Of a stretch of DNA of 64,000 nucleotides, positions 38,229-39,900 are shown piece after piece. Origin of the DNA: Aeromicrobium sp. Root236 (GTDB lineage Bacteria > Actinomycetota > Actinomycetes > Propionibacteriales > Nocardioidaceae); NCBI RefSeq assembly GCF_001428805.1, contig NZ_LMIS01000001.1, forward strand, positions 2,220,976 through 2,284,975. Direction: 5' to 3'. Below the pieces are notes generated by a model that searched no databases, was not told the DNA's origin, and was given only the letters and a program-made list of their open reading frames with translations. Each line of letters opens with the position of its first letter. Positions within the stretch are counted from its first letter, which is position 1. A program made the translations under genes and the position numbers.

Positions 38229-39485
38229 TCAGCTGAGCTGGCGCAGGCGCACGGTCTCGGGCAGGCCCGCGAGCTCCTTGAGCACGTCGGGTCCGACCTC
38301 CGCAGCGACGTCCGTGAGCACGTAGCCGAGCTCGCCGCGCGTCGACAGCGACTGCGCCTCGATGTTGACCTCGTGCTCGCCGAGCAGGCCGTTGATCGTG
38401 GCCAGCACGCCGGGGTGGTTGCGGTGCACCAGGGCGAGCCGGTGCTTGGTCGCATCCGACGGCAGGTTGATCTCCGGCAGGTTGACGCTGAGCGAGGTGC
38501 CGCCGACCGAGGCGTACGAACGCAGCTTCGACGCGACGAAGCGGCCGATGTCCTGCTGCGCCTCCTCGGTCGACCCGCCGACGTGCGGCGTGAGGATCAC
38601 GTTGGGCAGGCCACGCAGGTCGGACTCGAACGGGTCGCCCTGACGCTTGGGCTCGACCGGGAACACGTCGAGCGCGGCGCCGGCGATGTGGCCCGACTCG
38701 ATGTGCTCGCGCAGCGCCGCGGTGTCGACGGCGATGCCGCGCGACAGGTTGAGGAACAGCGAGCGCGGCTTCATCTGCGCCATCTCCTCGGCGCCGAACA
38801 GGCCGGCGTTGCCGGGGCGGCCGTCCACGTGCAGCGTGACGACGTCCGAGGTCTGCAACAGCTCCTCGATCGTCGAGCAGCGCTTGGCGTTGCCGAGGGC
38901 GAGCTTGTCGTCGATGTCGTAGAAGACGACCTTGAAGCCCAGCGCCTCGGCGATGACCGACAGCTGGCTGCCGATGTTGCCGTAACCGACGATGCCGAGC
39001 GTACGGCCGCGGACCTCGTGGCTGCCGGCGGCCGACTTGTTCCAGACACCGTTGTGCATGTCGGTCGACTTCTCGTGCAGGCGCCGGGCCAGCGAGATGA
39101 TCTCGGCGATCGCGAGCTCCACGACGCTGCGGGTGTTGGAGTAGGGCGCGTTGAACACGGCGATGCCCCGCTCGGTGGCGGCCTTGAGGTCGATCTGGTT
39201 GGTGCCGATGCAGAACGCGCCGATCGCGATCAGGTCGGGGGCGGCGTCGAGGACCTTCTCGGTGATGTAGGTCGTCGAGCGGATCCCGAGCAGGTGCACG
39301 CCCTGGATCGCCTCGATCAACTCGTCCTCGCCGAGCGCGCCGTCGCGGGTCTCGACCTGGTAGCCCTTGCCACGCAGGAAGTCCGCCCCGTCGACGTGGA
39401 TGTTCTCCAGCAGCAGGACGCGTACGTCCTCGTCGCCCAGCAGCGACGTGGGGAAGGGGTCAGTGGTCGTCATGGTCATCATCAT
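38229..39485 (-). CDS. serA: D-3-phosphoglycerate dehydrogenase, short ACT type
   Basis: First enzyme of serine biosynthesis, oxidising 3-phosphoglycerate with NAD, 418 aa. Rossmann motif RTLGIVGYGNIGSQLSVIAE; catalytic Arg in LNLSRGIAVD, Glu in HIAGAALDVFPVEP, His in LTPHVGGSTEEAQ. A single ACT domain begins near HRLALVHRNHPGVLATINGLL. The length is that of E. coli SerA; many actinobacteria instead carry the longer form with an extra ASB domain. RBS GGAGG lies 8 nt before the ATG. A ZTP-riboswitch-like leader precedes it, tying serine supply to one-carbon status. Confidence 0.92.
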   Translation of the reverse strand: MMMTMTTTDPFPTSLLGDEDVRVLLLENIHVDGADFLRGKGYQVETRDGALGEDELIEAIQGVHLLGIRSTTYITEKVLDAAPDLIAIGAFCIGTNQIDLKAATERGIAVFNAPYSNTRSVVELAIAEIISLARRLHEKSTDMHNGVWNKSAAGSHEVRGRTLGIVGYGNIGSQLSVIAEALGFKVVFYDIDDKLALGNAKRCSTIEELLQTSDVVTLHVDGRPGNAGLFGAEEMAQMKPRSLFLNLSRGIAVDTAALREHIESGHIAGAALDVFPVEPKRQGDPFESDLRGLPNVILTPHVGGSTEEAQQDIGRFVASKLRSYASVGGTSLSVNLPEINLPSDATKHRLALVHRNHPGVLATINGLLGEHEVNIEAQSLSTRGELGYVLTDVAAEVGPDVLKELAGLPETVRLRQLS

Positions 39486-39499
39486 CTCGGTTGCCTCCA

Positions 39500-39519
39500 G
39501 TCAGCAATGCACGGCTGAC
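39500..39519 (-). promoter_or_regulatory. Hairpin next to the serA Shine-Dalgarno
   Basis: On the minus strand GTCAGC pairs with GCTGAC around an 8-nt loop, and the stem ends one base before GGAGG (39494-39498). It fits an expression platform that controls RBS access downstream of the riboswitch aptamer. Confidence 0.55.
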
Positions 39520-39521
39520 GT

Positions 39522-39606
39522 GGGGCCCAGGCGAACGGTCCCGATGTCCGGTTTCTGCAGTCGCTCCCCGGTGGTACCCACCTCAACGCCAGTCGCGACC
39601 GACTGC
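39522..39606 (-). ncRNA. ZTP (pfl) riboswitch upstream of serA
   Basis: Read on the minus strand, the leader has the conserved pieces of the pfl/ZTP aptamer in order: P1 arm GCAGTCG (39600-39606), GACTGGCG, a GGTGG/CCACC hairpin, CCACCGGGGAGCGAC (39560-39574), the P1 partner CGACTGC, a linker with a CCGG hairpin, and CGCCTGGGC (39525-39533). These match the class consensus as I remember it. A -10-like TAGACT at 39611-39616 puts the transcript start at the aptamer edge. It would sense the purine alarmone ZMP/ZTP, which rises when 10-formyl-THF is short. Confidence 0.85.
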
Positions 39607-39660: not shown

Positions 39661-39900
39661 TCGGCTCACAGCCGGGCGGGGTCGAACCGCATCGTCGCGC
39701 GTACGACCTGGGTCACCGCCACCTCAGCGCGGTGGGCTGGGTCGAACCGCATCGTCGCGCGTACGACCTGAGGCACCGCCACCGCAGCGCGGTGGGCTGG
39801 GTCGAACCGCATCGTCGCGCGTACGACCTAAGGCACCGCCACCGCAGCGCGGTGGGCTGGGTCGAACCGCATCGTCGCGCGTACGACCTAAGGCACCGCC
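39661..39900. repeat. Four tandem copies of a 60-bp unit
   Basis: Units start at 39661, 39721, 39781 and 39841. The last two are identical, the second differs from them at two positions and the first is most diverged. Each contains GGTCG and CGACC arms 19 nt apart that can pair, and a GCGGTGG/CCACCGC pairing across unit borders. The last unit abuts the stop of the nucleoside hydrolase gene. Because 60 is a multiple of 3, open frames cross the array, but they lack a start signal and have no recognisable product. Confidence 0.95.

Follow-up and report, generated by a model that had tools for sequence, protein, structure and literature searches.

A ZTP riboswitch aptamer in the serA leader of Aeromicrobium and its probable translational expression platform

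Results

The serA locus and its upstream region

The whole stretch of DNA analysed in this study, hereafter the window, spans 64 kb of an Aeromicrobium genome and carries on its minus strand a serA gene (38229..39485) encoding a short-type D-3-phosphoglycerate dehydrogenase of 418 aa (NF008759). The protein scored 604.8 bits against the short-type model NF008759 (cut-off 404), whereas its score against the long-type model TIGR01327, 272.5 bits, was below the cut-off of 454. This is the sole close SerA encoded in the genome, the next match being 37% identical; a second close SerA was ruled out, given that the other four matches were 27-37% identical. Among the matches listed, the best named relative was that of Aeromicrobium sp. 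9AM, with 99% identity. A preliminary description of this DNA had assigned serA to the short type, which is correct, and had regarded this type as less usual for actinobacteria. The latter statement is weaker, as the best 80 relatives listed span many actinobacterial genera, a sample that does not measure how frequent the short type is in actinobacteria.

A -10-like box had also been described at the edge of the leader element, and the sequence TAGACT is indeed found at 39616-39611 on the minus strand. All 48 serA-type leaders, including L009, have a TAnnnT box no more than 40 nt ahead of the GCGACTGG block, and in 47 of them the box ends 8-26 nt from it. Further upstream, TAnnnT was found in 10 of 528 windows of 28 nt, a background whose window size differs from that of the leader test. 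With TAGACT at this position, the transcript would start close to where the aptamer and its P1 helix have their edge. A two-box sigma-70 scan gave no site, and a -35 element is therefore not supported.

The interval that separates the serA promoter from the preceding gene, which by eye is nucleoside-hydrolase-like, contains a 60-bp tandem repeat (39674-39900) of 3.8 copies with 97% matches. A genome search with the repeat gave 10 matches, three in the array and seven elsewhere with 72-83% identity, some of them side by side. By eye, about two copies are present in the close relative L118, and none in L119 and L122. The array looks like an expanding intergenic repeat, and the repeat is perhaps hairpin-forming.

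The aptamer and its helices

In a covariance-model search of the window, the ZMP/ZTP riboswitch family RF01750 matched positions 39606-39518 of the minus strand with 49.7 bits, above the gathering score of 39. The match spans the full model (1-86 of 86), has an E-value of 4.2e-05 for 64 kb searched against 4227 families, and kept its score in a separate 3.5-kb search. The preliminary description had proposed a ZTP aptamer here from a series of conserved blocks and had named this very search as the check to be made; the order, strand and place of these blocks were all borne out by the match. The serA leader thus carries a genuine ZTP-class element, which is confirmed. RF01750 matches nowhere else in the 3.92 Mb genome, and a model built from 33 serA-type relatives revealed no second element in the genome, all other matches having at most 18.4 bits (E >1.5). 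No glycine riboswitch was found at the gathering threshold in the 64-kb window.

The helices P1, P2 and P3 are all present on the minus strand, together with the conserved blocks GACUGGCG, CCACC..GGGAGC and CCGnnCGCCUGGG. In the Rfam register, P1 consists of seven pairs between CGGTCGC (39595..39601) and GCGACTG (39558..39564). P2 is the hairpin GGTGG gta CCACC (39570..39582), as placed by the alignment of 33 relatives. P3 pairs GGGACC with GGCCCC around the conserved loop GTTCGCCTG (39522..39542), as given by the covariance-model match, by folding and by the alignment. The aptamer ends 33 nt before the serA start, which places it, as expected for the class, in the 5' leader of a one-carbon-type gene. 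With regard to P3, A39539 and C39525 are unpaired in the window and form an A-C mismatch where the Rfam consensus has a G-C pair. The A in place of G is constant in the 46 sampled serA-type leaders and also occurs in 12 of 45 sampled glyA-type ZTP leaders.

In the alignment of 33 serA-type aptamers, 42 of 93 columns were invariant, conserved blocks included. The Rfam register of P1 (CGGUCGC/GCGACUG) was paired in 87.0% of the cells, with double changes at five of the seven pairs. The covariation score of P1-P3 was 0.224 versus 0.089 +- 0.012 for shuffles, none of 500 being as high, and it dropped to 0.10 or less when the partners were slid. Double changes occur at six of the P1-P3 pairs, a count that 32 of 500 shuffles also reached. 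The pairs of P2 never vary among the relatives, so that covariation speaks neither for nor against this helix. The closing stem originally described, GCAGTCG/CGACTGC, needs correction: it is the one chosen by the energy model for the single sequence of the window, but in the 33 relatives it was paired in 47.6% of the cells versus 43.0 +- 2.3% for shuffles (15 of 500 as high), and this register is unsupported by covariation.

The predicted expression platform

Downstream of P3, the hairpin GTCAGC-cgtgcatt-GCTGAC (39500..39519, minus strand; 39519-39514 paired with 39505-39500) adjoins the Shine-Dalgarno sequence GGAGG (39494..39498, minus strand). A hairpin touching the Shine-Dalgarno had been noted before; it stops right beside GGAGG, and it is predicted to be extended by a strand of P3. 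In the minimum-energy fold of the leader, taken as the ligand-free state, GGAGG is predicted to pair with C39525-C39522 of P3, with A39496 bulged, as the outer part of the hairpin of which GTCAGC/GCTGAC is the inner part. This extended hairpin and P3 are mutually exclusive in the predicted fold, and the 3' strand of P3 (39527-39522, minus strand) is the proposed switching strand.

In 39 distinct serA-type leaders, the ligand-bound state was imitated by forcing P3, leaving tertiary energy aside, and a sequence pattern was used to locate the Shine-Dalgarno. Averaged over the leaders, its probability of being unpaired was 0.28 without P3 enforced and 0.54 with it; predicted accessibility rose in 36 of the 39 leaders, and by about 0.1 or more in 32. 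Spacers were then shuffled with P3 and the Shine-Dalgarno kept in place. The mean gain of 0.26 compares with 0.09 +- 0.03 for shuffled spacers, and pairing between the Shine-Dalgarno and the P3 strand, 0.54, with 0.20 +- 0.03; none of 40 shuffled sets reached either value. Ligand-free accessibility alone was 0.28 versus 0.32 +- 0.03, with two of 40 sets as low. The whole 137-nt leader was no more stable than its shuffled versions (z -0.47), 60 of 200 of which folded as well.

Immediately next to GGAGG lies a base pair (39521-39499 in the window) that could be scored in 40 of the 46 Aeromicrobium leaders; 22 of these have A-U, 18 have G-C, and in none is the pair broken. Three changes on the serA tree suffice to account for this exchange, which is therefore suggestive rather than significant; the well-supported independent pairs number one with 40 rows and two with 31 rows. 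An alternative pairing, CCTCCG/CGGAGG, was found in L125. In the Mumia group (g21), release is predicted in one of five distinct leaders, and the other four do not fit. Direct pairing between the Shine-Dalgarno and P3 was close to zero in g6, in g9 and in all five Mumia-group leaders except L148, which had 0.30.

Discussion

Proposed mechanism and alternatives

We consider it likely that serA is controlled by a ZTP (ZMP) riboswitch in its leader, working as a translational ON switch. The ligand and the ON direction are most likely those of the class, as described in PMC2864571, PMC7266159 and PMC9481103, and control is probably exerted at translation, as suggested by the predicted strand competition. 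Without ligand, the GTCAGC/GCTGAC hairpin would grow outward, its Shine-Dalgarno side invading P3 and pairing with the 3' strand GGCCCC, which would hide GGAGG. When 10-formyl-THF is short, ZMP/ZTP would rise, bind the aptamer and lock P1-P3; P3 would then keep its own strand, the short hairpin alone would remain, and GGAGG would be free, allowing SerA to be made. The extra serine may feed the glyA-dependent one-carbon supply. The one-carbon logic put forward in the preliminary description, in which ZMP/ZTP is sensed before serA, fits the class.

A switch controlling transcription, by means of a U-less or Rho-dependent terminator and with the post-aptamer hairpin as the terminator, is an unlikely alternative. 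Actinobacterial terminators often lack U-runs, which counts in its favour. Many pfl RNAs are overlapped by terminators, according to PMC2864571, and the well-studied ZTP case is transcriptional (PMC10085676). The leader scan, which covers only U-run terminators and not U-less or Rho-dependent ones, gave no intrinsic-terminator-like site, and an intrinsic terminator overlapping P3 was rejected on this ground. Transcriptional control is also at odds with the hairpin stopping at the Shine-Dalgarno, with its predicted extension covering this sequence, and with the covarying pair located there.

Much less probable is a real aptamer that acts as an OFF switch in this leader or has lost its function. 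An OFF switch has been predicted elsewhere for ZTP, in the moeA tandem (PMC9481103), and the A-C mismatch in P3 departs from the G-C pair of the consensus. This A is, however, shared with the glyA-type leaders mentioned above, the invariant alignment columns and the covarying P1 speak for a maintained element, and forcing P3 raises rather than lowers the predicted accessibility of the Shine-Dalgarno in nearly all leaders. Nothing was found in favour of a chance resemblance or a different structured leader, the probability of which is negligible in view of an RF01750 match that is above the cut-off, sole in the genome, conserved across the family and covarying.

Known systems

The ZTP riboswitch class was reportedly defined by Kim et al. 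in 2015, and the serA finding leaves its definition unchanged. In PMC9481103, ZTP and glycine aptamers of Bacillus and Oceanobacillus are described in tandem upstream of the gene whose product begins the route from 3-phosphoglycerate to serine, with a one-carbon logic identical to that of the preliminary description. The Aeromicrobium leader resembles this system in that a ZTP aptamer lies ahead of the gene for the first reaction of serine synthesis and an ON response is predicted, and differs from it in that a single aptamer is present rather than one paired with a glycine riboswitch. That paper contains none of the words Actinobacteria, Streptomyces and Nocardioides. With regard to the platform, displacement of P3 is a published mechanism for a transcriptional ZTP switch: in the Clostridium beijerinckii pfl riboswitch, the expression platform invades the 3' strand of P3, as is predicted here (PMC10085676). 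The product in that case is an intrinsic terminator, whereas here it would be a hairpin covering the Shine-Dalgarno. Whole ZTP riboswitches have also been modelled by covariation, from examples that bear a terminator (PMC13273304).

No report of an actinobacterial association between ZTP and serA was found in the literature searched, but one may already be listed in Kim et al. 2015. The class is known, as is a first serine step under ZTP control (in Bacillus), and what is added is the clade-bound association with serA and, probably, a translational platform.

Distribution and possible reassignment of the switch

In a survey of the family whose filters lose some weak matches, RF01750 was found in 234 of 294 genomes. 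For Aeromicrobium, the survey lists 47 genomes that have a match and two that lack one, the latter being 82-83% complete. Each of the 46 Aeromicrobium loci that could be read has serA downstream; the 47th, L009, is unreadable downstream, its sequence ending 13 nt past the aptamer. The same gene follows in each of the 11 loci read in the sister genus groups g6, g9, g15, g18 and g21 (Mumia). By comparison, purH is downstream in the 22 loci first read from groups g5, g7, g12 and g23 without exception, and the single loci read from g13 and g4 precede folD and glyA, respectively. Extra ZTP copies in g7 genomes also precede other genes, and in one genome of Aeromicrobium (G083) purH is preceded by a second match (L237), whose 34.5 bits fall short of the cut-off.

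In a draw across the class that also took in members of the family, RF01750 matched in 178 of 393 genomes. The 68 loci outside the family, a sample that favours high scores and in which genes were labelled from short motifs, comprised 45 glyA, 11 folD, 7 purH, 4 AICAR-transformylase-like and 1 unread, and no serA. The serA-type elements share the aptamer class and the one-carbon/purine theme of the glyA/folD/purH-type riboswitches of Actinomycetes and differ from those outside the family in their target. Starting from serA instead, a ZTP element was found before the gene in eight of the best 80 named loci, seven titled Aeromicrobium and one Mumia xiangluensis; three further matches (E 0.46-0.57) were at chance level, and two loci without a match, L045 and L075, hold less than 125 nt upstream. 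The location before serA in the Aeromicrobium lineage is the sole unusual part, the sensor itself being ordinary.

At the purH gene of the window genome, no ZTP remnant was seen. When the locus was searched with the model unfiltered, the purH strand gave at best 7.5 bits, and the best match on either strand, with 18.1 bits, was on the opposite one. The stop of the upstream frame, which by eye is purN-like, and the start of purH share the sequence ATGA, which leaves no room for a leader. It is somewhat more likely than not that the ZTP switch has been reassigned within the family; the Aeromicrobium/Mumia side would carry it before serA and, if the purH copy of its relatives is ancestral, would mostly have given that copy up. 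At the sensitivity of RF01750, the ZTP riboswitch regulon of the window genome would then be serine synthesis alone, and the alarmone for formyl-folate shortage would act, via riboswitches, only by making the one-carbon donor, through strand exchange between the Shine-Dalgarno and P3.

Together with the sister genera, the 46 Aeromicrobium loci form a compact natural series in which one riboswitch class is joined to a different gene of one pathway, and which should be useful for studying the rewiring of riboswitch regulons. The probable short platform may help to show how strand exchange in P3 could drive translation instead of termination, and under the model serA of Aeromicrobium should be induced by folate antagonists.

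Several less typical loci were encountered among the relatives. In two g7 genomes, RF01750 matches at the cut-off (L234 and L235; 39.3 and 39.0 bits) lie just upstream of a membrane-protein-like ORF of 403-414 aa, transporter-like by eye, which is an unusual ZTP target. Their P2 has GGCCGG..CCGGC in place of GGTGG..CCACC, a variant also present in L236, before an AICAR-transformylase-like gene. Two further elements precede ORFs named by eye as metallophosphoesterase-like (L233, 42.6 bits) and pyridoxal-phosphate-enzyme-like (L229, 42.2 bits).
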